From: Saccoglossus kowalevskii
Lineage: Eukaryota > Hemichordata > Enteropneusta > Harrimaniidae
DNA length: 33,441 nt
Direction: 5' to 3'
Assembly: GCF_000003605.2 (NCBI RefSeq)
Contig: NW_003120919.1
Coordinates: 597,975-631,415, forward strand
In this document: positions 1-33,441 of the stretch, piece by piece
How the letters are laid out: every line of letters starts with the position of its first letter
Position numbering within the stretch: the stretch's first letter is position 1
The notes under the pieces: model-generated
The model's database searches: none
What the model was told of the DNA's origin: nothing
Seen by the model: only the letters and a program-made list of their open reading frames with translations
Program-made: the position numbers and the translations under genes

Positions 1-624
1 ATGTAGTACCTATATATGTATATCAAAGCAATTGGACTTGCGGTTTTCACAAGAAGTCGAAAATATCACTTTTTACCAAAAATTACAAAAATATTCACCA
101 AAATTAGAGAATTGAAGATATCATTACAAAATGAACAAATCTGAGAGAGGTCGACATGTAGTACCTATATATGTAATATCAAAGCAATTGGACTTGCGGT
201 TTTCAACAAGAAGTCGAAAATATCACTTTTTACCAAAAATTACAAAAATATTCACCGAAATTAGAGAATTAAAGATATCATTACAAAATGAACAAATCTG
301 AGAGAGGTCCACATGTAGTACCTATATATGTAATATCAAAGCAATTGCACTTGCGGTTTTCAACAAGAAGTCGAAAATATCACTTTTTACTAAAAATGAC
401 AAAAATATTCACCAAAATTAGAAAATTGAAGATATCATCATGAAATGAACAAATCTGAGAGAGGTCTACCCAAGGTACATATACACCAAGTATCAAAGCA
501 TTCAGGCTTGTAGTTTTCAAGAAGAAGTCGAAAAAGTAAAACATTGACACGGACGACGGACGACGACGACGACGGACAATCACTCATATGATAAGCTCCG
601 CTCGACAAAGTCGACAGCGGAGCT
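1..624 (-). repeat. Tandem ~156 bp array with microsatellite and terminal hairpin
   Basis: Units begin at 1, 156 and 313 (period 155-157 bp, nearly identical), followed by a diverged fourth unit from about 468. A GAC-rich microsatellite follows at about 549-579 and a hairpin at 594-624 with arms AGCTCCGCT and AGCGGAGCT, plus an inner CGAC-AAA-GTCG stem. The order array, microsatellite, hairpin recurs elsewhere in the window, so I read this as one mobile element with its hairpin end on the right; the array continues off the left edge. A diverged reverse-oriented unit lies at 23140-23280. The layout resembles Helentron-associated elements (HINEs); that assignment is inference. Confidence 0.75.
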
Positions 625-2834
625 AAAAACTCGCCATTTTAAGCAGTAAAAAAGTGTTTCCTCTGAAAATTAACGATCCCGAACTATTGTTTGATCTCCA
701 GGGTTCCTGGGGGATAAGTGGTGACTTTGAAATTGAGCTGATCTGTATTTAAATACAAAAGACTGAAAGAAACACTTTGATTTTTGTGTTTAATATCTAG
801 CATGCGTTTGATTGATTCCCATATACCTCGGCTATTTACGATACCCTTAGTTTACAAAAAAAAAAATCCGACCGGCCGACCCAATTTTTCAATTTTCCAG
901 AAGTTTTTTTTTTGTTGGCCTTATGTTCATCCTTTATTTCAGTAGACTGGAATGATTACAGCATTCCACTTGCTGAACACCACAAATGTCTAGTTACAAT
1001 GCAAGTTATATCTGACTGTTAACGTATGCACTATTCCACCCTCTGTCCCCTTTCTAGTATTCATTATGCATTCAAATTTATGGAAAAGTTGCACACGCTA
1101 TAGTATCTCGAGAGATTCAGTAATACCCCAGGTTCATAGCCAATTTAAATGATGGCCAGGAAAATATTCATGATGATAGTTTTCATTCTGTGTTGCTCAC
1201 TGGAGTTAGAGTAACGCGATAAAGCACTGAATTTTAGGCAACCATGTGAAAGATACTTTGTTAGAAATGAACCCATCCAGCATTACCTGATCAGCAATTC
1301 AAATTGCTTGTAACAGGAGATCGGTATTATAAAACTTATAAACGCTAAACCAAAGTCAAAATACAATTACCGGTAAAGGAAATGAATCAACATACACTAC
1401 TAGCAATTAATATAGAGAAATTAATTTTATTGCATATGAAAATGATAGTAAAATAATATATTTTAATACTCAAAAGAAGATGCATTTCAGAAGAAATTAT
1501 ATAATTTTATTTCACCTTGCAGACCACTGAATTGTTGCCTTAAAAAAATAGTTAACGTAGTGACCTTGGTAGTGACCAGATTCAGAACTGAATATTTTGC
1601 AAATCAAAGTTATTGCATTCCTTTCCACTTGAAATAAAAAATCATTCTTTTTTTTCTGGAACTGGCATGCAACATTTTCGTGGTCTTCAGAGAATGTAGG
1701 AATTGGTATAATTAAAACGATAATTATGTTTTACATGTCATATAAAAACCCATAATGCAATGCAACTATTGTGGAGAAATAACTCAATATACCCATGCCT
1801 GTGTTGTATCTGTCAGTACAGAGTGAGAATCAAGACACTTTAGTTCGGGTCAAAAATTACCACAGAAATGAAAAAAAAATAATACTTTCAGCCAGAATAA
1901 TCAGCATCGCAAAATGTTAAAAGATTAGAATATGAAAATAATGCAGCAATACTTTAACCGTAAATTTTATAAAACTGGAGAGAATAATTTGTAATTTGTA
2001 ATTGATGTCTGGCAGTAATTATTATTCACGTCACATACAAATGTTAATACACTTTTCCCATAAATCGTGATCTCTAGTGACGAAATGCTACCATGCCTTG
2101 TATAGAGAATTCGAAGCATCGATATCGATTATTTTCCATCAATGAAGACTTGATTTAGTGTTTTTACTTCTAAATAACGAACGACTACACAACCAAACAC
2201 AGCGGCCGAATTGAACAACACTGCTGTCACCCATATACCTAATTTGACTGAAGCGATCCATCATTAGATAGCGTGAAATATAGGGATGGTGTATTATTGA
2301 TAATTATCGTTTGCACATTTGGCATTACAGGGGTTATTTTGGGTCAGTCAGCAAAAGCACAGCTCATGACCTTGTAATTTACAATATAAGAAATTTACAA
2401 TACCAGATACCTCATGTATCTGCTTATCCAACCAGAAAGGCATCTTAAATGCCCAAAGACTACATTGTAGGTATATATTTGTACATAAATTAACACAATT
2501 AATGAAATACAGGCAATTTAACATACAAATTCCACACTTTCACTGCCAAATTTCTCTGAGAAAAAAGAGAATTTTGAGAGCTCTTCATAAACTATTGGAT
2601 CAAACCATGCAATATGTTGGAAAGATCAAGGGCAACATCTAAAAGAGGTGTAGTATCTGCCCCCCTTTTTTGTAAATGGTTTCACCTGGTAATAAAATAA
2701 TTCCATAATTATTAAATATTACTGCGACAATAATGTGTCATATAAAGAAAATAACTTAAAATATTAATTTAAATTCACATTAACCGTACAACAAATGCTG
2801 TCAACTGTTGCAATGAATTATCACGATTTGAGTC
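625..2834. other. AT-rich non-coding stretch, no gene seen
   Basis: About 2.2 kb downstream of the SDF4 stop on its strand. No long open frame, splice-supported exon or recognisable repeat was found. It contains only scattered homopolymers. Confidence 0.5.
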
Positions 2835-3060
2835 AAAATCCACTGTGACTCCCTAAAATCTCAGTAAAAGTCACTGTGACTCCCTAAAATCTCAGTAAAA
2901 TCCATTGTAGCTCCCTAAAATCTCAGTAAAATCCACTGTGACTCCCTAAAATCTCAGTAAAAGTCACTGTGACTCCCTAAAATCTCAGTAAAAGTCACTG
3001 TGACTCTCTAAAACCCCAGTAAACGTCACAGACATTTTAGAACCCCCATGAAAGTCAGTA
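2835..3060. repeat. 31 bp minisatellite, about seven copies
   Basis: The core CACTGTGACTCCCTAAAATC recurs at 2841, 2872, 2903, 2934, 2965, 2996 and in degenerate form at 3027, exactly 31 bp apart each time. Inner copies are almost identical and the rightmost ones decay. Two variants, beginning ATCCACTG and GTCACTG, alternate irregularly. It lies in non-coding DNA. Confidence 0.9.
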
Positions 3061-3490
3061 CGACTCTCTGGGACCTGCGACTCTTGAGTTTGAGAATCAC
3101 AGTGATTGCTCACTACTAAAAAATTTTGCACCCCCCCTCCAGAGAATTCAACTCTGACAACAATAAAGAGATATAAATTGCACCACAGAGTAGCACATTA
3201 ATTGCAACACAAACAATGCTGCGGAATAAAAAAAAAACATTTATCTACATTCACACATCTGGCAAAACATTTTGAAATTATTAACAATATCTTTTCAGCC
3301 AAACTGAAGCTTTTATTGGTTTGAACAAACCGGAAATTATCAGTCTTACGGTAGTGATGTGAGGACATCTCGTATTGATTTGATATTTAATTTAATCGAT
3401 CTGTGTGACCAAGTATTGACATATATGGCAATGATTCTGAAAGCTTGTATATTGAATGTTTGATGAATGTAGCAAGCTTACGTATTGCAC
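3061..3490. other. Non-coding stretch, nothing recognised
   Basis: AT-rich sequence between the 31 bp minisatellite and a MITE. No exon or repeat was recognised. Confidence 0.4.
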
Positions 3491-3680
3491 TACTGTAGAA
3501 TACTTACTTTATTTTCGCTAAGGAAATGATTCAGTGATAATAAAATCCAGCTAATAAACTTTTTTTCCTATATTTCACATTCAACTAATATAAAATCAGT
3601 GAAAATAAATTCCATACAAAACACCCAAAAAGTCTTATCAGCGAAAATTAATTCCAGCTAAAATAAAGTATTTTACAGTA
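3491..3680. mobile_element. MITE family 2, copy i
   Basis: A 190 bp element opening with TACTGTAGAATACTT and closing with AAAGTATTTTACAGTA, an imperfect terminal inverted repeat of about 16-24 bp. The interior shares the blocks GATTCAGTGA, AAAATCAGTGAAAAT and CCATACAAAACACC with copies at 10387, 11492 and 24079. It has no coding capacity and so is a non-autonomous DNA transposon; the superfamily is unassigned. Confidence 0.85.
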
Positions 3681-6020
3681 TTTATCAAGCGAGTTATTAT
3701 TTATCTTCACTAAATGCTATTTGAATTCCGTTTGGAAGTGTGCTATTAACCTCAACTAACCAAGGAAGTATGTAATGTTTTATGTTCATTTGGAAAATGT
3801 CAGTATATGTCAAGATGATGAGCCAACTGTTATTTCCTCACTTTAAAAAAACAGTGGATTTCTTTAGAGTAATACAATGTCAGACTGCAAGGATAATGCC
3901 AAATGATGTTACTATGGTAACCAATGATTTGATTCAAAAATTAGGACAGGATTTATAAGCATATAGTGTAAAATTTAATTATGATACCTTTGAACGCCAT
4001 ATTTTTTTTTACCAAAATATTGATGTAACATTTTCTATAAATTTTCATTTTGTTCGTTTAATACAGGGTTTAAAAATTTTGTAAAAATTACGCAGGTTTA
4101 TTTTGTGAAAGTTGACAATTGCAGCTCAGAGAATTAAAATCTACTCTTTAACCATGGGATTCATAAAACATGGTAAACTGGTACATAGACTTGTGTCTAA
4201 AGATGTCAAGATTTCATTAAAGTAAATCACATGGGTTATGAGATTTTTTTTTAATGGCAAGTTTCAGTAATCAAAATGGTTACTTTGAATGTATTGAAAA
4301 TAAATTATATGATAGAAAAACTATGCTATGATTTGGGATCGATTGCCATAACAACACATTCTTGATCTTGAAGTTACAGAAAATATCTGTTTATCATCCC
4401 TTGGCTACATCTCAAGTTATTCTATACTTTTGAAACAACGATGAACATTTTTATGTATTTAAAACGAATTTCATTTCAACTATGACCCAAATAGCTTTTC
4501 ATTGACTGCAGATTCATTTTGTGTGGGATGACACAATTCAGCTTTGGTAAGAATGAAAACCAATATTAAAGTTACATCAGACTTAGATTTAATATTAATA
4601 TTTTGAAAAATTATACATGAGAAACTAAATTAAAAATGTCTTGCACCTGCTGTGTTTGAAAAGATTGTATTTATGATATAAATTTGGTCACCATCTACAA
4701 ATAAATTTAAAATAATAAAAGTCAAAATTGTTAAGGAAACTTTTGATTAAAACAATTTCTTGGAAAAAAAATTTACAATTATACCTCACTTATCACCAGT
4801 TAATTATACTAAATTACTTTAATTAAAGGAAAGGTAAATAAACTTACGAAATAAATTAAAAAGTAATTAATAAAATAGCAATGGGAAATAACTTACTTCA
4901 AATGAAATTGTGACCACTGACTTTTCAAAATGTCTCTCCCGATGTCGGGCAGGAGTTTACGAGCAATTTTTAAAATCTCCAAAGCAGTGTTTCCCCTAAG
5001 CTTTCACTTTGCAAAATTTTCGCAGTGGGGGCAAGTTTTTCAGTGAAATTGAAAAATTTCTTTCATGTTGATGCTTAATGTATTAAAATATCCGAAGCAA
5101 AATAGTTTTTGAGCTGATATGACATATTTCTTACATATACCAGGAACAATGCTCTACAGAATTCTTAACATTGAAATAATTCCTAGAAATTTATTTGGGC
5201 AAGGTGAGTTAATTTTACAGTCACTCACTTTTAAACAAGATTCTGACAAGATTTTAATCACACTATTACATACACATGTGTGAAATAGCATGTGACCCAT
5301 GATGTCATGCAAAATGCGCCATTTATAGGTTATTTACCTGGACACACGATAATATTGTTGACTGAGGAATTCTAGTTCGGAATTTTGTGTTTTATACATA
5401 TATTCAGAAATATTCAAGTTGTGAATTACGGTGGTCAGGACATAGTTTCCATTATCTGTGTATATACACACAAGTCAGAGTGCAAGTTTAACAAGCAAGT
5501 TCTATAATACACATTTCATAAACCCATCCTACAGATCTTTCATGGAGGTTAAGGATGAAGAAATTTACGCATATTTAAACATGTGCCAATGATAACACTA
5601 TACCCATGTACATGTATGTATTTACCCTGTGGATGTTGTTGTGTATAATAACTCAAATACTTGATAAAGCATACTGTATAAATAATTGTTATTATACATC
5701 CACCAAGAAAAAAACAATTGAATTTTGAAGTGAGTAAAAAGCTTACCATCACTTGTTTAAAAATGAATCAGCACTCATTTGAATATAAAAGTTTTCTATA
5801 TATGGGGTAGACTATGTCACCAACATTGAAGTGTAAAAGGTTACTGATGTCACATTTCAACGCTTTTCTTTGTTTATATTGGATGCAGACGTACTATAGT
5901 GTACAAGGAACATAGAATCCTGTCCCTGAACACAATGGTATATACAAAACAAAACAGTTTTCCTTTTTCTTTCGGATGTTATCTCTTGTTAAATTAATAC
6001 TACAAGCAGGAAAATGATGT
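3681..6020. other. AT-rich region downstream of SDF4, no gene seen
   Basis: No exon, RNA gene or clear repeat was recognised over about 2.3 kb. The 3' UTR and poly(A) site of the minus-strand SDF4 gene should lie near its right end, but I found no canonical reverse-strand AATAAA close to the stop codon, so the transcript end is not placed. Confidence 0.4.
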
Positions 6021-6110
6021 ATATTAATAAGGTTACCACAAGAATACTAGAAAGTTTGTACTCAGGCAGTATGGGGACACATTAACCTATGCTACACGTC
6101 TGGCGATATG
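6021..6110. mobile_element. Partial copy of MITE family 3
   Basis: From AATAAGGTTACCACA onward the sequence tracks the element at 25516-25660 block by block: AATAAGGTTA, a CTCAGGCAGTA-like block, then CATTAACCTATGCT against CATCAACCTTTGCT. The right inverted repeat is not recognisable, so this copy is truncated or strongly diverged. Similarity also extends about 20 bp to the left. Confidence 0.55.
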
Positions 6111-6274
6111 ATCACCATATCGTCATCGTGCAAATGTTACTCCATTGCATTTCAATAAATATTCAGTCACATATTTTTAAGTTGATTATTAACCTATTCT
6201 TTAGAGCTTGTGATGCAAAAAAAAAGTACATTAAACTTGCGAGAGAGTCCAAATTATATACACAGGGGTGATAG

Positions 6275-6451
6275 CTAAAACTCATCATGGACACTTTTTG
6301 CATAGTTGAACATTTTGCTACCAATAAAGAAATCATAGTTGATGAGGACTTCTTTCAGTGAAAGTCTACCGTCGTCATTGATGTCAGCTACACCCATAAG
6401 ATGCCTGGCCTCACTCTCTGCATTATGTCGACTTTTTGGATCCATGTATAC
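6275..6451 (-). CDS. SDF4: SDF4 exon 6 (EF-hand 6, HDEF C-terminus, stop)
   Basis: It follows an acceptor ending CTTAG and opens in phase 0 with VYMDPKS, collinear with SYMDP of human Cab45. It encodes the sixth EF loop [12 protein letters not shown] and a conserved tail FFIGSK...SVHDEF before TAG. The terminal acidic-Phe sequence resembles the vertebrate Cab45 tail rather than the HDEL-type ER signal of other CREC proteins. Confidence 0.95.
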   Translation of the reverse strand, partial: VYMDPKSRHNAESEARHLMGVADINDDGRLSLKEVLINYDFFIGSKMFNYAKSVHDEF

Positions 6452-9400
6452 CTAAGTATCAAAAGAAAAAAGCAATTAGAAATCAACAAGTAATTTCATT
6501 ACATAGTTCCTGTGAATTATTAAACTTACTGTAAAATGACTAATTTTTACTGGGTTCAAATTCTGCTGATGTACCATTACAGGCATATTCAGTCGGTTTC
6601 AAATTCACAGTTTTATCATTTAGATAATGTGTTCTATGCTAAATTTTACATAATCACTGGGTTTTAATTTAGCGCATTTTCCAGTTAGTGAAATAATCAA
6701 AATTAAAACCCAGTGACTAATTAACAGTCCTGGCTTGTCAGAGATATGACTCTGGACCTGCATTCAATAAAACAAAATAGCTGCCAGTCGGCCATTTTGA
6801 ATCTGATTTGAAAAACACCAAGTCATTGAAAATGACCAGTCCCCGTTAAATTTTTGAAAGTTTTCTTTGTGCTCGTCATATTAAAGCGGAGGGGATGTCG
6901 CGAGCGTGTCCTTGAAACTTGAGTTCCATGTGGCGTATACAACAGATTGTTTATTTACATCAAAACACGTGTTCCGTGTAGTAGTAAGATGGCCAAAAAT
7001 AAAAACAGTCGTTATTCGGCCATCTTTGATCTGATTATAAAACACACTGATATGTATGATGTATGTGCCGAATACGAATGAAAATGGTACATAAATTGTG
7101 GAAATATAGTAGTAAGGCCAAAAAGTCAGATGGCTGTCAATCGGCCATCCTTGACCAGATTTTGAAACAAATTGTCATGGACATGCATCCTAACATGTAT
7201 AAAGTACATGTATGTGCCAAATTTGAATGAAAACTGACAGGGCACGTCCAAGATACCGCATAAAAAAACAAACAAGATGCCTGCCAGTCGACCAACTTTG
7301 ATCCAATTGCGAAATGAATCGTCATGAACATGTATCCTAACATGTATAATCTATGTACCAAGTTTGAATGAAAACTGACAAAGCATGTCTAAAATACAAC
7401 ATTTTCAAAAAACAAGATGGCTGCCAGTCTGCCATTTTGAATTGAATCGCTAAACCACTGCATGTGCATATGTCCCACATAAAGTACTAGGCACATGCAA
7501 AGAATGAACAGAATCGGTCCAAGGGATTCTGAGATATGACTGTGGGCGGATGCACAGACGCACAGACGGAAGGACGGACGGAGACCGAATTATAAGTCCC
7601 CGTGTCCCTGTTTTTGGACTTCGTCCAAACGGGGACTAAAAAGACATGCATCAAGGTGCAGTACATTTCATGTCAAATCAATGCATAATTTAATGCTAAG
7701 CAATTATACTTCCATAAAGTTTTATATCAATGCGAAGGAGACTGCCCTCCCTGCACACCAACGATAATTATTATAACTGTTGTAACTGTACCTCTAGTTC
7801 TTCTACTGTGACCTTCCCATCTTGATTTACATCAATGGCTTGTTCAAATTCTTTTTTACGTTCTCTCACCCACTCATCTTCTTTTGCCATTCTTTCTAGT
7901 TCTTTTTCATGTCCAATAGGAAGTGATACAAACTCAACAACCGTCAATATGCCATCACCATCTTGGTCTGAAAGTGAGAGTGATTTTGGATCAGACATAA
8001 TGATATATGCTGTAAACTGCATTTCAACTTATATGGAAGATTTCAGATTAATTTTGAAAAATCTGTTCCCTTTTTGTGAATTTTAAGACTGCTATTCGAC
8101 CATCATAGATTCAATGACAGCAAAAATTACTATTGTTTGGACATGATTGGACAGTGTGAATATAAGCAGAATTTCAACAACAAAAATGAGAATAACCAAA
8201 AATGTCTGCCAGACAGCCATATTGTATAGGATCTAGACAAAAAACAACTTGCATTTTCGTGAAATATTACATGCTACTGTACCAAGTATGGATACACTAA
8301 TGATTTGCAAAAATGACAAAAATTTTTGTTGTACAAAATGGCCATGAGTTGCAACATTGGAAAAATCTCATAAAACAAAAGATGTGCCACAGTATGCAAA
8401 TAGGTATAACCATTATTTTAAGTTTGAACAGAATAGCACAACTACAATGACAATACTCCAAACACGGTCCAAACATGACAAATTTAGGTTTTTCGGGTAA
8501 TTGCAAGACAAATAATTATATCATCCCCAGTTGGCCATTTTTAAAAATTGGAGCGTATGTGTACCATCATGCATCAACTGTGTATCAAGTTTGGGGAAAG
8601 TTGGCAACTTTTGAGAAAATGTGACAGACAGATGGATGGACAAACAGAACCCAATCCATAAGCCCCTGGACTGTGTACAGTTTGGGGATACATGTAATAA
8701 TACACATGATACTAACCCAAGTCATGTAATATTTCCTCAACCAATAAGCGTAACATTCCTCTACAATGCTCAGGATGCTTAAATGCTAGGAATTCCTCAT
8801 GTGTCAGACTGTTATCCTCGTTTTCATCAGCTTGCTGCCATCTGTCTTGATCTCTATATAACTCATAGTCATCTACAATTAATGGAAAAATGAATAATCA
8901 CATCAAAATAAATAAATTTATGTGAATGTAACATTTGAGTAGGTGTAACTAACCACTTGGGTTCTTTTGTTATTTTTACCGGTAATACTTTAAAATAAAA
9001 TTTTAAGCAGGTCCAACTCTGACCTTGCCTTTTTTTAAGGTCTTGCAAAACAAAAAAGGCATCTTAGGGTGTCAAATCACGGAATTGCACATGGGATTCT
9101 CAGTTAGATGACTAAATATAGACTATATTACAAAATCAATATTCAATGTTAGGCATTTTCCATCAAGATTAGCCTGAGATGCACGTCAGACTCTTGAGTT
9201 GTTTTTTGAATAGACTTATGAAATTATACGAGAATACTGCAAAGTATGCCAGAAGGCAGTACAGTGACAGTATCAACCAACTCACAGTAGAGATTGATGT
9301 AATTCTGTACTGCCTTACATACTAATTGTCATATTCTCATGATAACTTCATATTAACATCATTATTATAAGTTGTTTAATTTAATTTAATAAACCATTTT

Positions 9401-15763: not shown

Positions 15764-15770
15764 ATTAAAT

Positions 15771-19397: not shown

Positions 19398-19422
19398 AAA
19401 AAAAAAAAAAAAAAAAAAAAAA
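19398..19422. repeat. Poly(A) tract of 25
   Basis: Twenty-five consecutive A residues after CTCATAAT. It may be the tail of a retroposed sequence, but no parent could be recognised upstream. Confidence 0.9.
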
Positions 19423-20068: not shown

Positions 20069-20145
20069 ATAACCAATAACTGTGATAATAACATAATAAT
20101 TTTGACATTTTTTTAATTTGAGCCTAATTTCTAAAAACTGGAAGC

Positions 20146-22722: not shown

Positions 22723-22824
22723 AAATACAATACTGTGTATGCAGCTGCTCGGAAGAATGATATTGATGGTGTGAAACGTTTACTTGCTGCAGGACGACCA
22801 GTAGATGAACCGGATGCAAATTAT
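22723..22824 (+). CDS. Ankyrin repeat exon 1
   Basis: The acceptor CTTATTAG opens on KYNTVYAAARKNDIDGV, and the donor GTATGT follows ANY. This is a 34-codon ankyrin repeat whose usual TPLH is replaced by TVYA, common in an N-terminal capping repeat. The in-frame codon immediately upstream is TAG, so the exon must be reached by splicing and lacks its own ATG. Confidence 0.9.
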
Positions 22825-25800
22825 GTATGTGATGTCATTGATATATTTATCATACATGGAACGTGTGTTTCCTTCGATCCTATAGTAAAATCTGATCCAG
22901 TATTCAATGACTCAGCAAATGCATCAAATACTTTTACTGTGCCATCTGGACAAATTATTTGTAATCACTAAGTCAGAATTGGAAGTTTGATTCCGATTGT
23001 CTGTGCTTGCATCTGTGCATGTGTCTCTGCGAAACCTTGGTCATGCATGAACCAATTTTGTTCAAATCTTGGTACAAGTCGAGTGGAAATGATCATGTTA
23101 CTGATTGTCTTCTTCAACTTCCGTCACCAACTGTATATTTTTAACTGCTTGGAAACTGCTAGCCCCATTGCTTCAATATTTTACATGTTGGCACCTCAGG
23201 TGGATCTCTCTCAGATTCATTCATTTTGTAAAGATATAATCTTAAATTTTGAAAAATATTTTTTTTTTCATTTTGTGAAAACTGTTGTTATCATTTTACA
23301 CCATTTTACAATCAAAGTCAATTAAAAGGGTTTCTTTGTATCAAAATATGCAATTTTTGGTTTAAATAGGTGAAAATGACGTTTTTGCCTGTTCTCTGCC
23401 TCGATCAATTTCATTCAAACTTTACGTATTGTCTAAAACATCACATATGTTGCTAAACACAGTTTCACAATCAAAGTGTATAATAATTTTTAGGTCAAAA
23501 TATAGTTGGGAAATTCTGGTAGAGTGAAATAATGTTTGTGCCTGTTCTCAGCAAGGTATTGACCAATTCTATTCAGACTTTACATATAGGTGTTAAACAA
23601 CACATTACATATGTAGATACAATTGCACAATCAAAGTCTATTGATGAGGTCTCTAAAGTTCAAAATATGTCATTCATTTGTAAAAGTTTATGCAGGGGTG
23701 ATGTCATTGACTCAATTGATGACTTGTTTACTGTGTGGTCGATAGTGATAGTCAATTATAAGTAGCTCCATCCCACAAGATTAATTATTCGTATATTGTT
23801 ACAGTATAACCAAACTGCTTTACATTATGCCGCACGTCATGGGTATACAGCTATAGCAGAAGTGTTGATTAATGCAAAAGCCAATGTGAATGCTGCAGAC
23901 AGCTTAGTGAGTATAATTTCTATGATACGTATGGTGTCAATTTGAGCTGCTGCTCAGTATATTCAGATGTTGTATAACATTTGAACTTGGTCTTGGGATG
24001 CTTTAAAATTATTTTTATTAAATATCTTTAAAATAAAGTTGGTATAATATAATTAAGGAATAACCACTCAATTTTGATTACTGTAAAATACTTTATTTTC
24101 GCTTGGAATTAATTTTCACTATTTTCGCTGAAGGAATAATAAGATCCAGTGAATATACCTTTCTACCTATATTTTACATTCAACTCGTCAGAAATCAGTG
24201 AAAATAATTTCCATACAAAACACCCAAAAAAGTCTTTTCAGCAAAAATTAATTCCAGCTAAAATAAAGTGTTTTACTGTTACAGTAGTTCCTTCCATATA
24301 CACATACAAAATAGTTCTGTTTATAGTCTGCACTTCCCTTCAGACGACTGGGACAAAAATAGTAAATTTTTTTGAGTAAAAACTGAAAATTGACTAAAAT
24401 TTTGTCTGTTGGCTCCAAAAACAGGGTTCTTTTCCAGAAATAGTGAAAAATTATAAGAAAAATATGCAGAAAAATTAGGGCGAGAAAGTCTGGTGGTAAA
24501 AAGGTTAATTACCTTTGTACCTTCTTTCACATATTTGCAACACAAATTAAACTGTCACAGTGGCAGTCCAAAAGTCTGGGAAAACACAAACATAGCCGAC
24601 TAACTTTTGTGATTACCCTTGTCTGTTATGAAAACATGAAGTCACTGTGGCTGAGTCAGTCTTTATTTGACTCGCATAAAATATACAAAATAATGTTTTG
24701 TTCTCAAGTAATGTTAATAAGGATTAGAATTAGGTAGACATATGATTAATTTCTTACAATACTGTAATTAATTTATAATTAATTAATTATATAATTAATT
24801 ATATAATTAATTACATGTATTTCATTATTTTTTTTATTTATTCAGCTGCATTCATTCAACTGCATTCTTTCATTAAATCAATCAAATAATTGATAAATTA
24901 AACAATTAATTAATTCAGCAGAGTGATTCCTCATTGCTAATTATCAACTTTCATGTGACTCATTTGCATACAGTGGAAGCTGACTCCATTACATTTGGTT
25001 GGAGCGAATGCATCAGTTGCAGAATTATTATTGAATAATGGTGCTGATATTAGTGCTGTCGATGACGTGAGTATACTTATGGTGTATATATGTGTCTGAG
25101 GTCATCACTAAATCGTGATAATATTACACAATAAGAATATTATAGTATGCAATTATCGACTAATTGTTTTCACACATTTTAAATGGCAAATATAATCCAT
25201 AATTCTCAAAAATCATTTTGTGGCTGAATAATTCCTGATTTGCTGATATTGTGTATTATACACTGTAACACCATAAGTTACAGAATGCCGTAATTTTGTG
25301 GTATTTTACAGGGTATTTTCATCCTACCATAGTAGGAAATGCGAATTCCATATATGGAATGATTACGCGCGTAAGCATCCTCTAATAATAAAAACAAACA
25401 TGGCTGCCACTAGAGTTTGACCGAACTCCACACAAAGAAGTTCGCTGATTCTGTTTTAAAAATTTTGGATTTCAACATTCCCATGGTGTGGTGTATCCCT
25501 GGAAGGAAAAGATGTATAATAATAAGGTTATTACGAGTATACCCCAAAATATACACTCAGACAGTACGCTGTGCATCAACCTTTGCTGCATGTCGGTTGA
25601 TACTCCAGCTGTACTGTCTTTGTGCATACTTTGAGGTATCCTCGTAATAACCTCATTATATATTAATTTATAAGATTAGGGTATGCAAGGGTGTGATATG
25701 TTTTGAAGATCACACACGAAGTGAAGAAGCCACGCAAATTGTGATATCATAACAAAATTGCAAAAGAAACCTATGTTTCTAGGAATCCTATAGCAAATTA

Positions 25801-28800
25801 GGGAGTGTGAAAGACCTGGTTTGTGTTCATGTCAGACCGTTTGTGTCCTTGCATATTCGCAAATCATGTTAAATACATCGGCTTTGCGATTCTGAATGTT
25901 TATGCAATAGAACATTTCCAAGCACCCACTTATTCTGTGATGCTATTGGTTATTCATTGATGTGTTACTCATGAGATCTTTATCTCATATCATCATAAAT
26001 GTTTATGATCTTTGACAAATTTCTGACATTATCACAACTCCATGTTTTATGTGATTTGATTTGAATCCTTACTGACTGTCATGTTCAGGTTTTATTTTCA
26101 AGTGCCCTTACTAACTTCTCTGACACTTTTTGACCAATTTTTGGGGTTTCAGTGACATATAACAAACTATTTTATTTTTTAGTTGTTTTTAGATTTTTCT
26201 CTGGCACACTAACCGATTTTGTTTAAATTTAGTGCAAAGGCAATGAATAATGGTTTCATTTGCCAATTATTTTTGTTTCAATAAAATTATTGACATTATT
26301 ATCCTTCTTTTGTGTCTGCAAATCAAATGCATCTTTATACATGCCAGCTAGATCTATGCCATTGACAAAGACTCCATTATGAAATTAACAATCAGACAGT
26401 AATGTATCTAATGGAATGCCATTACCATCATTTGCAAATGTTTATAAATTATCATGTTTTGACATTGCTTAGTTTAATAAATGCAAATTAACAAGCTGTC
26501 AATAGCCTAAATTAAATCAATTAGGCAAGGTACAGAAATAAATTGTAGCATTGGCTTTTAAGCTTATGCAGGATACAAGCTAGCTCATTGGCCTGCTCAA
26601 AAATGATTGATTGTTTTCATTCCTCCCCCAGAGAAAGGATACTCCATTACATAGTGCTGCACGAAATGGACATACACTTACAGTGAAGACACTATTAGAT
26701 AAAGGTGCCAATGTAAATGCTGTCAATACAGTGAGTATATTCTTTTGTTGATGTGTAACATCTATGAGCATAAACTCATCAGATTAGTGGCACAACGATA
26801 TTACAATGCAAATTAATGTACATGTAATGTTTTCGTTTTTTTCCCAGAACGGAAACACTCCATTACATAGTGCTTCACGGAATGGACATATACTTACAGT
26901 GGAGACATTAATAAATAAACGTGCCAATGTGAATGCTGTCAATGCAGTAAGTATATTGTTTTACCATAGGTATTAAGTCAATAAGTATAAATGTCCAACT
27001 GTTAGCTATTCCATTTTATGCTTAGCTTCATATTGATAAAACCAAAACAAACTTTTAAGCATATTTATAAGAATACACTAATACTTTACTGATGCCAATT
27101 CCAAGTACATACACGTATATTTCGAAACAGGTACATTGGGAAATCATGAGTATACACACATGCATGGATCTATGCAGATATGTTTGCTTCGAGGTTCATG
27201 TATAGGGATAGTATGATTTAATCTGTCATCTAAATAATAAAATATCAATTAAGAACAAAATATTCAGCAGATCAAATCAAACGAGTTTTATGATATTGAA
27301 ATAAATTATGATATTTTGTAGCGTCATTGTGAGGATGCGCATCAACATCAGCTTTTGTGTATACTATGCATCATCCAAAGATATATTTATATCGTAATTG
27401 GTTTGGTGCATAATAAATGAATAAATCACATTTTTAGCGATGAAAACTAATGAAAATTTACTAAATTGCAATGTGAATGAAAGCTATATTGTACTCTTGT
27501 TTGTCAGGCTCAGCGTGCTCCATTGCATTGTGCTGCATGGTATGGAAAAATACCCATAGTTGACTTATTATTAAACAATGGTGCCAATCCCAATATTGTC
27601 GAAGATGTGAGTACACTTGTATGGATTTATGTAATGTAAAAATTCACCACTAAATTGTGGAATTGTAACAAATAGTGGTTTCACTCAGAATTTAGTGAAA
27701 TAAAACAATGTGTACATTCTATAATTCATATAATTAAAATAAGATAAATTTAAGTAACAGTGTTGGGATTTGAAAGGTGGAAGTTGACTTTTACGATCCA
27801 TAACAAAACTTATTAAAGTTATCTGAATTATTATTGATATTATTAATATTAAACAAATTATTTACAACATTGATAAAATTGAAAGCATTACATACATTTA
27901 TGTGATTAATTTTTTGTTTTCAATAATCTTTGGCCAAGAGACCATTTTCCATTTACTACGAGATCCTGCGTTATGCATGAAATTGAATATAAAAACAGTA
28001 CAAACAAAGGTTATAGCATTGTAGTGGTGACAAACATCGCGTGGGATTCGGCAAACGCAAAAGTATTTTGGAGGATATTTCCATGCTTAATAATGTGCTG
28101 TATACATTTGATGATGTTCAATTTTGATGAAGTAAGGGTATTCAAATGCAATGTTCCCTTGTCAAAGATAAGCTTTTCGATGTGAGCTTACAAATAAAGC
28201 AATCCAAGTTCAAAATCAAATCGTTCGATTCTTGCGGCAGATGTTCGGTGTGTGTCTTTCACGCAACTTGAGAAATTGCATAGTTGAACGGAAAATCACC
28301 TACTGGTGATCAATCAAAAACATTTCTTATGCATAAAATTATGGTATAATGTTGAATTTGCAGATTGATAGTAAATTTGTATGATTTGATTTTACATTAC
28401 AGATTGGCAACACACCACTGATGAGAGCATGCTATGGAAATTCATTGGACGTTGTTAAACTCTTATTATCTAAATCAGCAGATGTTAGTCACCGTAATAA
28501 GGTTAGTTTACGCATCTTGTAAATTTGGTGCAATCCAAAAAACAGAATTCTCTTCACCTGAAATGTGGGAAAAATATTGCAAAATTTAAAAAGGTTTGAG
28601 ATAGTAGTAGAAGCGTCTTGAAAAAACAGCTAACTAAGTGAAAGGAAATATTTTGCACAGTTCTTCTAACATGTGCCCCCACTTTTTAGTCCCTGTTTGA
28701 ACAAAGTTCAAAGCGGGGACTTATAATTCATTCTTCGTCCTTCCAGAGTCATATTACATTACCCTGTGGACCAAATCTGTTCATTTTTTGCATGTGTCTA

Positions 28801-31800
28801 GTACTTTATCTGGGATTTGCACATGCAGTGATTTACTGATTCAATCAAAGATGGCTGATTGGTAGCCATTTTGTATTTTGTCAGTTTTTGTTCAAATTTG
28901 GTACATGCATTTTACATATTATGTATAATTGTAATTGACCAATAACGCAATCATAAACTGTCACATTAAATGTGTTAGTTTTGTTTTTTACTGAATTTTT
29001 GTTTTCCAGTTATTCTTACAGTTGTTTTGAAACACCACAGAAACCATGTTTTTCCAATATTATTTTTCAGAAACAAGAGAATGCACTGTTTGCAATAATA
29101 GATGTGTACAGCCCATTTCTCACAACATCACAAGATAAATGTAATGCATTGAATATCATGACGATTTTACTGGACAATAATATTGATATGATAACACCAA
29201 ATAAGGTTTGTAATTTACTTGTATGCTTATGATTCACTTATGAATATAAATAATGAGCAGAATTATGAATATATATTTCCAGGTTAAATATGTCACCATC
29301 AATTTCAGGAATTTCCTTATTTATGACTCAAAAAGTTGTTGATGGAGTATTATCACATTAGAGGTATTAGTGAGAATATGTAATTTGCATTAGTGATGGG
29401 GGTTTGGGATGCCTTCTGTGTTTTGGTAGAGATCTGAGTATGGTTTCCATGGAAACAGCACTTTCAGGAATGATTTTTCACTTATAACTCAAAATAGTTT
29501 TAATGGATTCTCATGAAATTTGCAGGAGGGGTTACCCTAGAAAGTATTAATCAGTGTTGGGAAAGCATGGAAACAACATGGAAACAAGAATTACCAAATA
29601 ACTTCAAAAGTTAATGCTAAGTGTTCTTAGCATGAGTTAATTTGTCCTTCACGCATATATGATTAGATTTTAGCTGGATTCATTTGCTATGAATAAAGCA
29701 CATTTTTGCAGGATATTCTCCACCATTATCAGATAGGATATTTCTCTGATTTGTTGATCTCTACAAAATGTAGTTCGTAGCTTGCAGATATGTCAATGTA
29801 ATAAATGTGTCTTGTCGAAAGGAGACTTAAAATTGAAGAGGTATTATTAAGTATATTAAGTTAATTTGCAGATGCTGTTGAAGTGACTTGAAGTTTTAAT
29901 AATAGCATTTCAATTTAAATTGTAGGACGGCAAGACCCCAATTGAGTATGTGAGGTCTAAAATTGGTACAGAAAGTGATCTCATGGATGAATATTTCAAG
30001 GGAGCTGAGATATTGTTGATGAAAGTGAAAGCGGTATTGTTTTGTTTTGTTTTTTCAATCATATATGTCGAATACTAAACTGATATATATTCTGCCAACC
30101 AGCAATTACCTAATATATATACAACCTTACCCAGGACAATTGTTCTAAATTTACAGGCACGAGTCTATAAAGAACTAAAAACTGAACCAGGAATCCCCAT
30201 TGACACATCAAAACTACTGTTGTGTGGAGATGGAGGTGCAGGTAAAACTACTCTAAAGAACTCCCTACTCAAAGTGAGTATTTGTTATGATCACGTTTTA
30301 TGCGTATGATCAGGTGTAAATGGCAAATTATAGGCACATGTTCATTAAATATACATGACATGATATTAATATCAGTGATTAACAAAAATATACATGTTTG
30401 CATTGCCATCATAAAATTGTATGGATTTATATTATGAAATATTTCTCATATTCCAGACATCCGAATCAAAAGCTGGTCCTGCACCAGGGGAAGATAAGTA
30501 TGTGCTGACCCCAGGCATTGACATATCCAAAGAAGAATTGCCAGGTGTTGGTAAAATGGTTATATTAGATATGGCAGGACAAGAGAGTTATTTCTGCAGT
30601 CACGCTATGTTTTTACATGCAAATAAAGCTACTATAATTGCAATGTACCAGGTTTGTGACTTTGTAAGTGGGAAGGTGACCAGACCTCTGGATATTTTGG
30701 AGAGAGAAATGAACCGGGTAAGAAGATAATTATTTTAAAAGATGGTTCAGTCTGAAAACACCAATAATTTAAAGTGCAGGTTTCAGTAAAAGCACATGTG
30801 CATATTTGAGTTTAACTAGTCATGATCAGTCATGATCTATCTGACATCATTATCTGTCTGTTAATGGCCAAATCTATGTATCAACACATGCATTCAAACT
30901 GAATAGCTTTTTCGGAGATTACAAGTGGAGACCCCACAGGGAATACCAATGTGATTTTCAATTCATTATTGTCCCATTTATTAATTGGAATGCAATTAAC
31001 AGAACCTTTGATGCTACATACAGAAATGGTTTACAAAATGTTGAAACTATGAATATTGGTAGTGGATGCCGGTGAGAAAAATCTGGCACCACTGGTAACT
31101 ATATCAGTTATGTCTAAATTCTGAGGATAAGATGAACATTTTCAACATATGTCTGATATGGAGCCAGCCATTTTTGTCCTAAAAACAATCAACATTTAAA
31201 TATGTCATCAGGCATTTAATTTTCAGGCAGGGACTGATTTCTTTCAATTTTAGTATTGACGTGAAACACATGATGGGTTTACTGATACATGTGTTTAGTT
31301 TCGTGATGTGATACAAAATGGCCGACTTACAACTATCAGTATATTTGTTCAATTTTGGTGCTAAGGCAAAGTTTAATGGGTTGTATGATCTGAATTGCTA
31401 TACAGACAAGATATTATGTTATGAATATGGATGTCTAATTGTTTTTCAATTTGAGGATTGATAATCAACAAATAATTTTTTGTCCCAAAATCCCTGAAAC
31501 AACAACATTTAAATATGTCATCCAACTATTTCTAAGGCATTCCTTGGTCTGTTTTTTTTCAAGTATGAACACCGCACATAAAGGGAAAGTCATAGTAGTG
31601 GCAAAAAGTCTGTCATTCAACTTTGTTATTTTTTTGTTGGTGCGATAACTTCAATAATATTCAGCCGATTGCTACCAAACTTATATATATGGTTAATCTG
31701 TGTAGTTATAGGTATAGTTGGCATTTATGGATTGATTTTCCAAAAATTATATTTCTGTTTTTCTCTTCAAAGTGTATATAGTTTATATTGGGTGTAGCAG

Positions 31801-33441
31801 TTAAGTGTACTTTACAAGTGGAAGATCAGTCAGTCATTGTTTGCAGTGAAAAATGGATGGATTTTGTTCAAGCTTGGTACATACATTAGACATAATGGTT
31901 CCCTGATTGTTTTAATGAATGCAGTTCTAAAGATATATCTTATAGGTGCTTTGACTGATTATGTTCAAATTTTATATATTCATTATACTTATATATTGAT
32001 TTGACGATCCAATTTAAAATGGCCAACCGGTGGCCATTTTGTTTCAAATAATGATGTTCCAGTGGAATATCTCTCAATATTGACAAGTATTGTACTATGT
32101 TACTATGAACAAAACTATATAACTTAGATTTGATAAATAACAGGGACTGTGCCCATGCATGGCTTGTCATCACAAATTCACAGAATAATCATGTTTATAA
32201 TCTGTACTTGGGACAAAAATAGCAATATTTTTTGAGTAAAAACTGAAAATTTAAGCAAATTTTGTCTGTTGACAAATACTGAAGAATACAAGGAACAAGT
32301 AAATTTTGGGCGAGAAAGTCTGGTAATGAAAAGTTTAAGTGATATTTCTGTTTATTTTCAGATTATTAACTGGTTTCAAATGCTGAAAGTTAGAAACCCA
32401 TCATGCTTGTCTGGAGTTAAACTGACTGTAATCTTAGTAGCAAGCAGAGGTGATTGGGCGGAACAGTTTAATTATCAGTCTGAAGGTAAGGTAAACTTCC
32501 TATCATTTGTGAATAACTGTATTTCAATATTTATTTTTTTAGTTACAACTCGCTTGTACCCTGCCTCATTGCAATCATGATGTCGTTAACTTACTTAAAA
32601 TGAATTTACTCACAGTTGGTGGCATGAAGAAGCAATGTGAATTATACATGTTGTGGTTTTATGATAAAATAAACCAATGTAAAAAATGAAATTTATTTTT
32701 TATCTTGAGTGCATCACAGAGATCACTGTTTTGTTTGTCTCTGCTAAAAAATGACAAATTCAGATTCAACATGTGAACAGTGCAAGAAGCACATTAAGCT
32801 TGTTAATGAGTGCAAGTGCACTTTAACTGAAAAAATACTGCTATATCTTTTTGACTCCCATGTGCGAAGCACAAAATGGGAGTCTTTGCAGTTAGTGTGT
32901 CTGTATGTGTGTATGTGTGTATGTGTGTATGTGTGTGTGTATGTGTGTATGTGTGTCCGACTGTTCCACTGCTATCTCAAGAACCATACATCGGTTTTTG
33001 ATGAAACTTGGTGCATAGATGCTCTGGGCCAATGCGCAGATTTGATTAGGTTTTGGTAAAAATCCATGCTCGTTAATTACCTAATTTGCATGATAATTAG
33101 CTATTTTTTAGCTGTTCTATGACTGTTCCACTGATATCTAAAGAACCACTCATTGGATTTTGATGAAACTTGGTACATAGATGCTCTGAACTAATGTAGA
33201 TTTTGATTAGTTTTTGGTAAAAATCCGTGCATATTAATTACCTAATTTGCATGATAATTAGCTATTTTTTAGTGGTTCCATGACTGTTCCACTGATATCT
33301 AAACAACCACTCATTGGATTTTGATGAAACTTGGTACATAGATTTTCTGAACTAATGCTAGGTTTTGATTAGTTTTTGGTAATAATCCGTGGATACTAAT
33401 TACCTAATTTGCATAATGATTAAGTCAATTTTCGGTTTTTC
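22723..33441 (+). CDS. Ankyrin-repeat/Roc GTPase (ROCO-like) gene, partial at both ends
   Basis: Twelve GT-AG exons join in one frame to 479 residues (22723-22824, 23805-23906, 24974-25066, 26632-26730, 26848-26946, 27508-27606, 28403-28501, 29071-29205, 29926-30033, 30157-30273, 30457-30717, 32362-32485). A probable thirteenth starts at 32764. Residues 1-231 are seven ankyrin repeats, one per exon; 232-312 hold degenerate repeats. The Roc domain follows: P-loop GDGGAGKT at 336-343, TPGIDI with G2 Thr369, DMAGQE at 389-394, hydrophobic strand VILVAS and G4-like SRGD at 466-469. Ankyrin-Roc order is as in DAPK1 and many invertebrate ROCO proteins, in which Roc binds GTP/GDP and is followed by COR. 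COR and any death or kinase domain would be past the window. Function is unknown; a cytoplasmic signalling or scaffold role is inference. Confidence 0.93.
23140..23665 (+). repeat. Tandem ~153 bp units in ankyrin intron 1
   Basis: TGCCTGTTCTC recurs about 153 bp apart near 23386 and 23539, each followed by ATTC-AACTTTAC and, about 75 bp on, CACAATCAAAGT. An earlier partial unit carries TTTACAATCAAAGTCAATTA near 23305. The segment 23140-23280 matches the reverse complement of the left-edge array (GGATCTCTCTCAGATTC, TTCATTTTGTAA). No hairpin was found. Open frames here are repeat-derived. Confidence 0.65.
23805..23906 (+). CDS. Ankyrin repeat exon 2
   Basis: The acceptor GTTACAG and donor GTGAGT bound 102 nt in phase 0. 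It encodes NQTALHYAARHGYTAIAEVL then INAKANVNAADSL, a full canonical repeat with the TALHYAARHG turn-helix signature. Confidence 0.95.
24079..24286. mobile_element. MITE family 2, copy iv (ankyrin intron 2)
   Basis: 208 bp; opens TACTGTAAAATACTTTATTT and ends with AAATAAAGTGTTTTACTGTT then ACAGTA. It is the longest copy, keeping GCTTGGAATTAATTTTCACT, which is the inverted partner of AAAATTAATTCCAGC near the right end. The inverted repeat thus reaches about 45 bp with mismatches. Confidence 0.9.
24318..24510. repeat. Interspersed repeat, copy 1
   Basis: It shares GGGACAAAAATAG, TTTTTTGAGTAAAAACTGAA, TTTTGTCTGTTG and GGGCGAGAAAGTCTGGT with 32193-32338 in the same orientation. No terminal inverted repeats are obvious. 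About 190 bp here; the other copy has an internal deletion. Confidence 0.75.
24765..24818. repeat. AT-rich palindromic low-complexity tract
   Basis: Repeated TTAATTAATTATATAAT units, self-complementary throughout. Intronic. No function is suggested. Confidence 0.75.
24974..25066 (+). CDS. Ankyrin repeat exon 3, shortened repeat
   Basis: Only 31 codons in phase 0 between the acceptor GCATACAG and donor GTGAGT. It encodes KLTPLHLVGANASVAELLL then NNGADISAVDD. The segment between TPLHL and ELLL is two to three residues shorter than the standard AAxxGHxxxV, so the first helix or turn is trimmed. Frame is kept. Confidence 0.92.
25516..25660. mobile_element. MITE family 3, copy with full TIRs (ankyrin intron 3)
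   Basis: Left AATAAGGTTATTACGAGTAT and right, on the other strand, AATGAGGTTATTACGAGGAT. The inverted repeat continues through ACCCCAAAATAT / ACCTCAAAGTAT and ACAGTAC, about 50 bp of a 145 bp element. Relatives are at 9218-9351 and 6021-6110. Confidence 0.85.
25661..26631. other. Ankyrin intron 3, remaining part
   Basis: Long intronic stretch. Around 26100-26290 the text TTTGACCAATTTTTGGGG and CTAACCGATTTTGTTTAAAT resembles decayed units of the ~150 bp arrays, but the period cannot be fixed. No exon was seen. Confidence 0.35.
26632..26730 (+). CDS. Ankyrin repeat exon 4 (duplicated partner of exon 5)
   Basis: The acceptor TCCTCCCCCAG and donor GTGAGT bound 99 nt. It encodes KDTPLHSAARNGHTLTVKTL then LDKGANVNAVNT, a full 33-residue repeat. 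Exon 5, only 117 bp downstream, has nearly the same DNA, including the start of the following intron (GT-AGTATATT-TTT). Confidence 0.96.
26848..26946 (+). CDS. Ankyrin repeat exon 5 (tandem exon duplicate)
   Basis: The acceptor TTTTTCCCAG and donor GTAAGT bound 99 nt encoding GNTPLHSASRNGHILTVETL then INKRANVNAVNA. It differs from exon 4 at roughly a dozen of 99 bases, so the pair looks like a fairly recent duplication of one exon with part of its flanks. Confidence 0.96.
27508..27606 (+). CDS. Ankyrin repeat exon 6
   Basis: The acceptor TTTGTCAG and donor GTGAGT bound 99 nt, phase 0. It encodes QRAPLHCAAWYGKIPIVDLL then LNNGANPNIVED, a full repeat with Ala for the usual Thr before PLH. Confidence 0.95.
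27941..28300. mobile_element. ~350 bp TIR element, copy in ankyrin intron 6
   Basis: It begins ACCATTTTCC and ends TTGAACGGAAAATCACC and aligns with 9394-9740 over most of its length. A 70-codon plus-strand open frame inside it has no counterpart open frame in the other copy, so it is not a gene. Confidence 0.8.
28403..28501 (+). CDS. Ankyrin repeat exon 7
   Basis: The acceptor ACATTACAG and donor GTTAGT bound 99 nt encoding IGNTPLMRACYGNSLDVVKL then LLSKSADVSHRNK. It is the last canonical ankyrin repeat before the degenerate ones. Confidence 0.95.
28688..28960 (+). repeat. Hairpin-ended array unit in ankyrin intron 7
   Basis: A hairpin at 28688-28721 has outer arms AGTCCCTG and CGGGGACT and an inner TTTGAAC-AAA-GTTCAAA stem. 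Then come TTCGTCCTTCC, a worn GGACG microsatellite on the other strand, and units with GTGTCTAGTACTTTAT, TGGCTGATTGGTAGCCATTT and TTCAAATTTGGTACATGCA. These are the reverse complement of the 7400-7637 segment, so the two are copies of one family in opposite orientation. Confidence 0.75.
29071..29205 (+). CDS. Degenerate ankyrin repeat exon 8 with insertion
   Basis: The acceptor TATTTTTCAG and donor GTTTGT bound 135 nt, phase 0. It encodes KQENALFAIIDV, an insert-like segment YSPFLTTSQDKCNAL, then NIMTILLDNNIDMITPNK. The start (ENALFAI) and end (MTILLDNNID) fit an ankyrin repeat carrying about 12 extra residues between its helices. Confidence 0.88.
29300..29640 (+). repeat. Two ~158 bp array units in ankyrin intron 8
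   Basis: CAGGAATTTCC-TTATTTATGACTCAAAA near 29308 and CAGGAATGATT-TTCACTTATAACTCAAAA near 29466 start two related units 158 bp apart. Each continues with a TTGATGGA- or TTAATGGA-like block and, near its end, GGAAACA. No hairpin or microsatellite was found. Confidence 0.55.
29926..30033 (+). CDS. Exon 9: last ankyrin half-repeat and linker
   Basis: The acceptor AATTGTAG and donor GTATTG bound 108 nt, phase 0. DGKTPIEYVRSKIG is the start of an ankyrin repeat. The rest (DEYFKGAEILLMKVKA) is a charged, helical linker leading to the Roc domain. Confidence 0.88.
30157..30273 (+). CDS. Exon 10: start of Roc domain with P-loop
   Basis: The acceptor AATTTACAG and donor GTGAGT bound 117 nt. After PGIPIDTSK comes strand LLLCGDGGAGKTTLKNSLLK: the Walker A/G1 motif GDGGAGKT binds nucleotide phosphates, and its Lys and Thr are intact. 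The spacing from ankyrin repeats to P-loop resembles DAPK-type Roc proteins. Confidence 0.95.
30457..30717 (+). CDS. Exon 11: Roc G2 and G3 motifs
   Basis: The acceptor ATATTCCAG and donor GTAAGA bound 261 nt, phase 0. LTPGIDI carries the G2 threonine (369), and VILDMAGQESYFCSH carries the G3 motif DxxGQ (389-393), typical of Roc and Rab-like GTPases. A GTTTGT inside the exon after AMYQ could act as a weak alternative donor, but the downstream LDILEREMNR joins smoothly to the next exon. Confidence 0.94.
31230..32110 (+). repeat. Degenerate array units in ankyrin-Roc intron 11
   Basis: Repeated cores TTCAATTTTGGTGCTAAG, TTCAAGCTTGGTACATACAT and TTCAAATTTTATATATTCAT, together with ACAAAATGGCCGAC and AATGGCCAACCGGTGGCCAT, look like three or more decayed units of the TTYAARYTTGGTAC type in plus orientation. 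No hairpin or microsatellite end was identified. Confidence 0.5.
32193..32338. repeat. Interspersed repeat, copy 2
   Basis: It matches 24318-24510 in order: GTTTATA, CTGGGACAAAAATAG-like, TTTTTTGAGTAAAAACTGAA, TTTTGTCTGTTG and GGGCGAGAAAGTCTGGT. The middle part is replaced or deleted. It ends about 24 bp before exon 12 and so supplies part of that intron's 3' end. Confidence 0.75.
32362..32485 (+). CDS. Exon 12: Roc strand and G4-like motif
   Basis: The acceptor TATTTTCAG and donor G-GTAAGG bound 124 nt; it ends in phase 1, the first break from phase 0. IINWFQMLKVRNPS is the helix before strand VILVAS. SRGDW sits where other GTPases have the guanine-specifying NKxD and DAPK1-like Roc proteins have SHAD; Asp is kept. 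Confidence 0.93.
32764..32890 (+). CDS. Probable exon 13: end of Roc domain, 3' boundary uncertain
   Basis: An acceptor AAATTCAG at 32761-32763 leaves AT, which completes a codon begun by the G of exon 12 (Asp). The frame then reads STCEQCKKHIKLVNEC and CTLTEKILLYLFDS. The pattern of a helix followed by a strand ending in FDS resembles the last helix and strand of Roc domains (KLFVLDA in DAPK1 as I recall it). The pyrimidine tract is poor. The exon runs into the hairpin at 32853; GTTAGT at 32891 is one possible donor. Confidence 0.55.
32853..33441 (+). repeat. Hairpin, GTAT microsatellite and three ~162 bp tandem units
   Basis: A hairpin at 32853-32884 has perfect 9 bp arms GACTCCCAT and ATGGGAGTC and an inner GTGC-GAA-GCAC. 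A TGTGTGTATG microsatellite (about 32898-32956) follows, then units whose ACTGTTCCACTG starts lie at 32960, 33122 and 33283 (162 and 161 bp apart). Units share GATGAAACTTGGTRCATAGA and ACCTAATTTGCATGATAATT. The third unit continues off the window. Same layout as the left-edge element, opposite orientation. Confidence 0.88.

Follow-up and report, generated by a model that had tools for sequence, protein, structure and literature searches.

Introduction

Does an order of tandem units, microsatellite and hairpin, which recurs along a stretch of DNA in ever different letters, mark one kind of mobile element? This question is raised by 33,441 nucleotides of the hemichordate Saccoglossus kowalevskii (contig NW_003120919.1, positions 597,975 to 631,415, forward strand), hereafter referred to as the window, in which an initial annotation had described this order at six sites and proposed several families of Helentron-associated elements (HINEs) that use one mechanism. 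The analysis presented here makes it very probable that the intact sites are HINEs, i.e. non-autonomous and apparently non-coding Helentron-type elements of several hundred bases to more than 1 kb, which are copied as outlined below. This reading is supported by hairpins at the element boundaries, by T-rich TT insertion and by the lack of duplication beyond T, while confidence in it is slightly lowered by the decay of nearly half of the subTIRs in one family (B) and by a sample that favours hairpin-holding copies. At least three families with different letters (A, B and F) follow the single layout, in agreement with the proposal.

The layout is already known from HINEs; new here are the members A, B and F, and not a new kind of element. 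HINEs spread satellite-like arrays through animal genomes, and three families with complete ends, a B element nested in an A element and a set of empty sites make their rules visible in one genome, namely the T-rich target, a triple complementarity and the unit-wise change of arrays.

HINE copies in the window

All six sites had been assigned the same order of array, microsatellite and terminal hairpin. The window hairpins were folded as single-stranded DNA and compared with 200 dinucleotide shuffles each. Those of sites A, B, E and F were better than 200 of 200 shuffles (z -4.2 to -5.7), the hairpin of site D (13411-13458) was weak, with 10 of 200 shuffles equally good, and that of site C (8644-8696) did not rise above chance (127/200). 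The common order is borne out at sites A (1-624) and F (32853-33441), applies to site B with corrected limits and to site E in truncated form, but lacks a convincing hairpin at C and D. Moreover, the hairpin does mark an element edge as annotated, but it consists of the 5' subTIR and the IR and is not the 3' end; the opposite end, which was absent from the annotation, comprises the 3' subTIR and a palindrome. The 5' and 3' designations used throughout presume a polarity that is adopted by analogy with Cg_HINE of Crassostrea gigas.

The family A copy (1-629, minus strand) is truncated on its left, where an assembly gap (N) adjoins. Read along the minus strand, it features TTTTT and a two-storey hairpin (594-624) of 5' subTIR AGCTCCGCTGT, inner stem and IR AGCGGAGCTT, a GTCC/GACGG-type microsatellite (about 551-577) and a 157-bp array, which TRF places at 1-534 (3.4 units). 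Site B holds a complete family B copy with true limits of 6819-7637 (minus strand) and 95.4% identity to the 25-row consensus. Its 5' subTIR/IR hairpin (7595-7637) contains a short insertion in the IR side and is followed by a GTCC-type microsatellite (7550-7582), tandem units of about 141 bp (7170-7429, 1.8 copies by TRF, with more diverged units leftward), the 3' subTIR (6838-6847, AACGGGGACT on the minus strand) and the 3' palindrome (6822-6836, GTCATTTTCAATGAC on the minus strand), after which TTG closes the element at 6819. The adjoining bases 6763-6818 match a B unit and look like a piece of an older neighbouring HINE. Family F (32848-33441, plus strand) is cut on its right by the window end and consists of TTTTT, a 5' subTIR/IR hairpin (32853-32884), a TGTGTGTA microsatellite (32895-32957, also given by TRF) and a 161-bp array (32959-33422, 2.9 units).

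The remaining sites are incomplete. Site E (28688-28921, plus strand), a relative of family B, retains the 5' hairpin (28688-28721), a degraded microsatellite and about 1.5 units, and no 3' end was seen in it. Site D (12601-13458, minus strand) is a decayed family-B-like HINE with an unrelated insert, the reading frame of which (12850-13160, minus strand) we take to resemble the C-terminus of a non-LTR retrotransposon protein. Site C (8180-8690, minus strand) comprises decayed HINE-like units. Two further pieces had not been listed before: a decayed HINE piece at 31835-32166 (left limit approximate, plus strand), which by eye has a family-B-type 3' end (AACAGGGACTGTG, CCATGCATGG, CTTG) with a palindrome differing from that of family B, and a decayed piece at 23020-23292 with family-A-like units. 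In addition, a 31-bp tandem repeat, CACTGTGACTCCCTAAAATCTCAGTAAAAGT, occupies 2841-3029 with 6.1 copies.

On its left, the window borders N within the A array, and on its right it ends within the F array. In the genome, F arrays ran into N in all seven copies of one set (L059-L065) and in one of five of another (L070), and the A array at window position 1 and the F arrays seem to break the assembly. A search of the whole window against Rfam gave no match at gathering score, and a Pfam search gave none for 8 window reading frames, nor for a 103-aa frame over the left end of family F.

Anatomy of the element ends

In element sense, family A reads TTTTT-AGCTCCGCTGT (5' subTIR)..AGCGGAGCTT (IR), followed by a GTCC-type microsatellite, 157-bp units, the 3' subTIR ACAGCGGAGCT, a CAGCC..GGCTG palindrome and CTTG|TT. 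In family B the corresponding parts are TT-AGTCCCCGTT..AACGGGGACTT, a GTCC microsatellite, units of about 141 bp, AACGGGGACT, GTCATT..AATGAC and TTG|TT, and in family F they are TTTTT-GACTCCCATGTGC..ATGGGAGTC, the TGTGTGTA microsatellite, 161-bp units, GCACATGGGAGT, an imperfect TCTAAG..CTTTGA and TT. All three families thereby show the Cg_HINE-type arrangement, in which the IR pairs with the 5' subTIR and is followed by the microsatellite and then the array in constant orientation. Hairpin, microsatellite and units fill the consensus sequences of A and B.

Perfect inverted identity of the two subTIRs extends, in consensus or copy, over 12 bases in A (of which one is a T from the T-run), 10 in B and 12 in F (2/2 elements). 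Within single elements the identity is whole in 20 of 21 A elements (11 bases) and in 13 of 25 B elements (10 bases), with partial loss in 12 of the 25; these counts, like the flank counts given below, leave out one head each of loci L003 and L020 (the inner) and of L054 (the outer). The subTIRs of about 11-15 bp that characterize both ends of HINEs were hence found in these families, in B with only 10 bases. For the naming of families, 11 identical subTIR bases have been used (PMC4067079).

The 5' hairpin is two-storeyed in A, B and F, with an outer stem of 8-9 bp, an inner stem of 4-6 bp, a 3-base loop and a small bulge, and each of the three surpassed 200 of 200 shuffles. The 3' palindromes are weaker, since 28 (A), 13 (B) and 89 (F) of 200 shuffles folded equally well; they hold a constant position in A and B copies and are imperfect in F. 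A script for TT followed by a stem of at least 8 and an inner stem of at least 4 was run over 71 sequences, 228,101 bases in total, and returned 43 places, each of them belonging to type A, B or F. Three rounds on shuffled sequence returned none, and only this zero is informative because the loci had been chosen for holding A, B or F. Compensatory changes appear at copy level in the B hairpin (inner stem of the window copy, 28688 site and L049), but were set aside as proof of pairing, since several equal CpG decay and would match by chance. By eye, a stretch after the IR (CTTAT.., then GTCC-like) is common to A, B and sites C, D and E and missing from F, and on this visual comparison A, B and the decayed sites appear not to be all unrelated, while F stands apart.

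Genome copies and element boundaries

The genome search covered 572,110,611 bases in 4830 contigs, and the scored copies were the best 40 of 2508 (A), 1569 (B) and 2252 (F) first-look candidates. Their choice as best matches to hairpin-holding queries implies that truncated copies are under-sampled. For the consensus sequences, A was limited to elements of 700-910 bases (14 rows) and B to 720-850 bases (25 rows).

The family A 5' hairpin edge was present in 28 of 28 loci and the 3' end in 21, the remaining 7 running into N, reaching the contig end or having an unrecognised 3' end. For 21 A elements, two of them double-headed, both ends could be paired (23 entries); locus L022 falls outside this set although it shows both A ends. 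In family B, the anchor just inside the IR was found in 30 of 30 loci, with L056 lacking the outer part of the hairpin and L057 bearing a deletion in it, and 25 of the 30 yielded elements with both ends paired (26 entries, one doubled). The left flank (bases 1-1400) was unmatched by any other locus in 23 of 30 B loci, and beyond base 2450, about 100 bases past the usual 3' end, inter-locus matches were absent from 21 of 30; the largest exceptions stem from a second B copy or B-like units in L042, L048, L050 (right) and L054 (left). The family F 5' edge occurred in 7 of 7 loci, each of which reaches N about 650-870 bases further on. Among five further stretches, chosen for longer matches, two (L066, L067) contained the F 3' end, whereas L070 leads into N, L069 stops with its contig and L068 passes into non-family sequence. 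The genome copies of A, B and F thus place the hairpins at element boundaries, as had been predicted.

Some copies are compound. L003 (reverse strand 1419-1500) and L020 (reverse strand 219-300) are A copies with a doubled 5' end, in which about 81 bases of terminus precede a complete element and the junction is a TTTTT that is also present inside the element; their identical spacing suggests that such a double-headed copy was possibly mobilised in one piece. At 1502-3391 of L050, a B element with 94% identity to the consensus lies directly before an older B copy (79-91%), separated by a T-rich stretch, an arrangement expected if the T-runs at element edges are themselves targets.

Insertion sites

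The flanks are dominated by T. Positions -1 and -2 are T in 21 of 21 and 21 of 21 A elements and in 25 of 25 and 24 of 25 B elements, respectively, and T is the first base past the 3' end in all 21 A and 25 B elements. Suffix-prefix matches between left and right flank across these 21 A and 25 B elements were no commoner than in shuffled pairs, and three identical non-T bases on both sides occurred in one B element out of 25 and in none of the 21 A elements. The two F elements with both flanks likewise lie in T-runs and share no flank sequence.

Empty sites were sought with 49 joined-flank constructs within the retrieved sequences. Five gave spanning matches, three of which (L031, L037 and L049, all family B) represent empty sites; the other two, L050 and L054, were dropped, as they matched neighbouring copies within their own locus. 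The empty copies of L031 comprise window positions 25438-25589, L052 and L051 (the last with further gaps at the joint), and that of L049 is L025, with two small gaps elsewhere. In L037 (996-2472), a B element is inserted into the 157-bp array of an A element, to which five empty copies were aligned, and this nesting supplies a relative age in addition to an empty site. The empty-site paralogues are 75-88% identical to the filled sites, which in 3 of 3 alignments are two T longer beside the element. The gained TT could equally be part of the element or a 2-bp TT duplication. The expected TT insertion without target duplication beyond T was accordingly observed in all three empty sites, each of family B, and in the flank counts of 21 A and 25 B elements; T-rich TT insertion with no target-site duplication is also a defining property of HINEs.

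Alternative explanations

Canonical Helitrons begin with 5' TC and close with a 3' hairpin followed by CTRR. They insert between A and T (PMC4067079). Assignment to this group was rejected, since the present elements have CTTG|TT or TTTGA|TT at their end and are inserted into T-runs. Mobilisation by a cut-and-paste transposase, the elements being MITE-like DNA transposons, as pearl-type elements were once assumed to be, or else foldback elements, would conform to the inverted repeats close to both ends and to the many copies (best 40 of 2508, 1569 and 2252 candidates). Yet the inverted repeats are subterminal, the ends are asymmetric, with hairpin and microsatellite on one side and a palindrome on the other, the three empty sites all lack a duplication beyond T, and the 46 elements show none above shuffled pairs, rendering this origin very improbable.

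That plain satellite arrays merely adjoin chance hairpins, with no mobile element involved, would be allowed by sites C and D if they were taken alone, given a hairpin at chance level in C and a weak one in D. Considering that dispersed copies share the same paired ends and have empty sites, and that the hairpins of A, B, E and F beat every shuffle, this view is contradicted for A, B and F and appears very improbable overall. Retroposition of units with an A-tail, finally, is suggested by the A-run at one edge of family A, the hairpin end of site A reading ..AGCTAAAAA on the plus strand; it has a minimal probability in light of ends that are both constant in 46 paired elements (a sample picked by hairpin-holding queries), of T-rich bases at both edges and of the absence of duplications above shuffled pairs. 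The HINE reading is hence retained in the following.

Tandem units and array length

A recurring core had been described for the otherwise different units. In comparisons with 200 shuffles per pair, the core AAACTTGGTACATAGAT (element 5'-to-3' sense) was identical at 17 of 17 positions between one B unit and the F unit, with 0/200 shuffles as good, in the same sense relative to the 5' end and with no such match in reverse orientation. A second B unit compared with F was equalled by 9/200 shuffles, and the B unit beside the microsatellite, which lacks the core, by 126/200 against F and 127/200 against F's first unit. For sites D and C, the corresponding numbers were 0/200 (D vs B), 1/200 (C vs B), 5/200 (D vs F) and 47/200 (C vs F). 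The main unit of A lacks the core and matched B no better than 59/200 shuffles; it did match F (0/200), but at another place than the core, and A's first unit gave 29/200 against F, 179/200 against B and 177/200 against B's first unit. On these alignments, B and F truly share the core, D and C are likely to have it and it was not found in A, so that the description is clear for one B unit and F, patchy elsewhere and inapplicable to A's main unit. The letters AAACTTGGTACATAGAT were not found in the literature searched.

Array length changes in steps. The lengths of 20 A elements lie near 731 + 0, 1, 2, 3 or 5 x 157, within 0.19 unit, where the base length of 731 was chosen by us and the set omits the interrupted A of L037 as well as the outer heads of L003 and L020. 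With their ends constant, the copies hence vary chiefly in the number of whole units.

Comparison with published elements

The closest description is that of Cg_HINE, which features a 5' subTIR of 11-12 bp, a complementary IR, a 3' subTIR and a 3' palindrome, a GTCC/GTCY/GTCK microsatellite in several elements, a short array whose 140-180 bp units keep a fixed orientation, and a T-rich TT target with no duplication, while an autonomous partner was not linked (PMC7492417). Families A, B and F resemble it in layout, orientation rule, target and absent linked partner, as judged by the accessible portion of that description and not by letters. Differences concern the spacer between subTIR and IR, which folds into the inner stem in A, B and F and for which the Cg_HINE text available gives a length only (1-12 bp), and the microsatellite, which is TGTGTGTA-like in family F and of GTCC type in Cg_HINE. 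An inner stem of the 5' hairpin was not found in the accessible parts of PMC7492417, PMC4067079, PMC5139131, PMC8268682, PMC12628747, PMC7992393 and PMC11136912. The Cg_HINE groups combine related and unrelated modules within one genome (PMC7492417). The mover of this microsatellite-and-array type is unlinked here as it is in oyster, a question already in print.

HINEs were defined, and their variable T-run reported, in PMC4067079. According to the portion of this source available, DINE-1 and the HINEs of mite and Culex share with A, B and F the subTIRs, the 3' palindrome (a putative one in the present families), the variable T-run at the edge, the TT preference, an unmodified target site and tandem repeats in some copies; for those HINEs autonomous Helentrons with the same ends are known, whereas none was found for A, B and F. 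The bivalve elements pearl, CvA, CvE, MgE and DTC84 carry internal repeats of about 160 bp as seen here, a likeness of size in the text available and not of compared letters (PMC7492417, PMC5139131). Conserved motifs common to the internal repeats of different elements are described in the accessible part of PMC5139131, and such sharing is found in the present families alike.

Proposed mechanism

Copying of these elements would proceed by a rolling circle driven by a Helentron protein (Rep, PIF1 helicase and endonuclease) acting in trans. The protein would nick at the T-run beside the 5' subTIR, whereupon one strand would be peeled off by synthesis through microsatellite and array until, beyond the 3' subTIR, it stops at the 3' palindrome that adjoins CTTG|TT or TTTGA|TT. 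The freed strand might then be laid into a T-rich site, leaving the target unduplicated, and arrays would gain or lose whole units within otherwise constant elements. The 5' subTIR could pair either with the adjoining IR or with the distant 3' subTIR.

Since A, B and F keep both pairings despite their different sequences, pairing rather than letters seems to be selected, and all three families are consistent with the conservation of shape rather than letters; we infer that one mechanism may stand behind the several families. A more speculative and rather doubtful extension is that the 5' end might be recognised by the shape of its two-storey hairpin, the outer strand of which would switch between the IR and the distant 3' subTIR and thereby tell the Helentron protein 'start' from 'stop'. 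If true, this switch would account for the use of a single enzyme by unrelated families.

A Helentron gene in the same genome

The initial annotation had asked for an autonomous Rep/helicase element with the same ends. A Helentron gene is indeed present, but none with A, B or F ends occurs in the four Rep-bearing stretches inspected. The PF14214 profile gave 8 matches in this genome and none in 14 control genomes. At locus L073 (C2261), Rep (PF14214), PIF1 helicase (PF05970) and endonuclease (PF03372) lie in three neighbouring open stretches in two frames, and Rep motif 2, YRVEFQQCGSPHTH, fits the serine rule for Helentrons as given in the available text of PMC4067079. Judged by this domain content, L073 is taken to be a Helentron gene. 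Its element ends were not found in the retrieved sequence, which is followed by over 4 kb of N.

The search for A, B or F ends on a coding element covered 5 of the 8 Rep matches, in the stretches L073, L075, L078 and L079, and found none beside them; of the other three (C238, C3452 and C1873), C238 was inspected for frames, as L074. L078 and L079 contain Rep pieces without A, B or F ends. In L075, a Rep piece is followed about 1.3 kb downstream, in the same sense, by a decayed unit of family A that breaks off at the 3' subTIR; this unit was rejected as the Helentron's own end and is read as an old neighbouring HINE. At 2504-3657 of the same locus, a coding-looking minisatellite (QLPRCHLTSWMSTTKVSPHIVDVNYQG..) interrupts the Helentron-type Rep reading frame. 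In L074, an 11-kb contig, an open frame of 1446 aa matches Helitron_like_N weakly (40.2 bits); it looks unlike L073 and may belong to another lineage or to foreign DNA.
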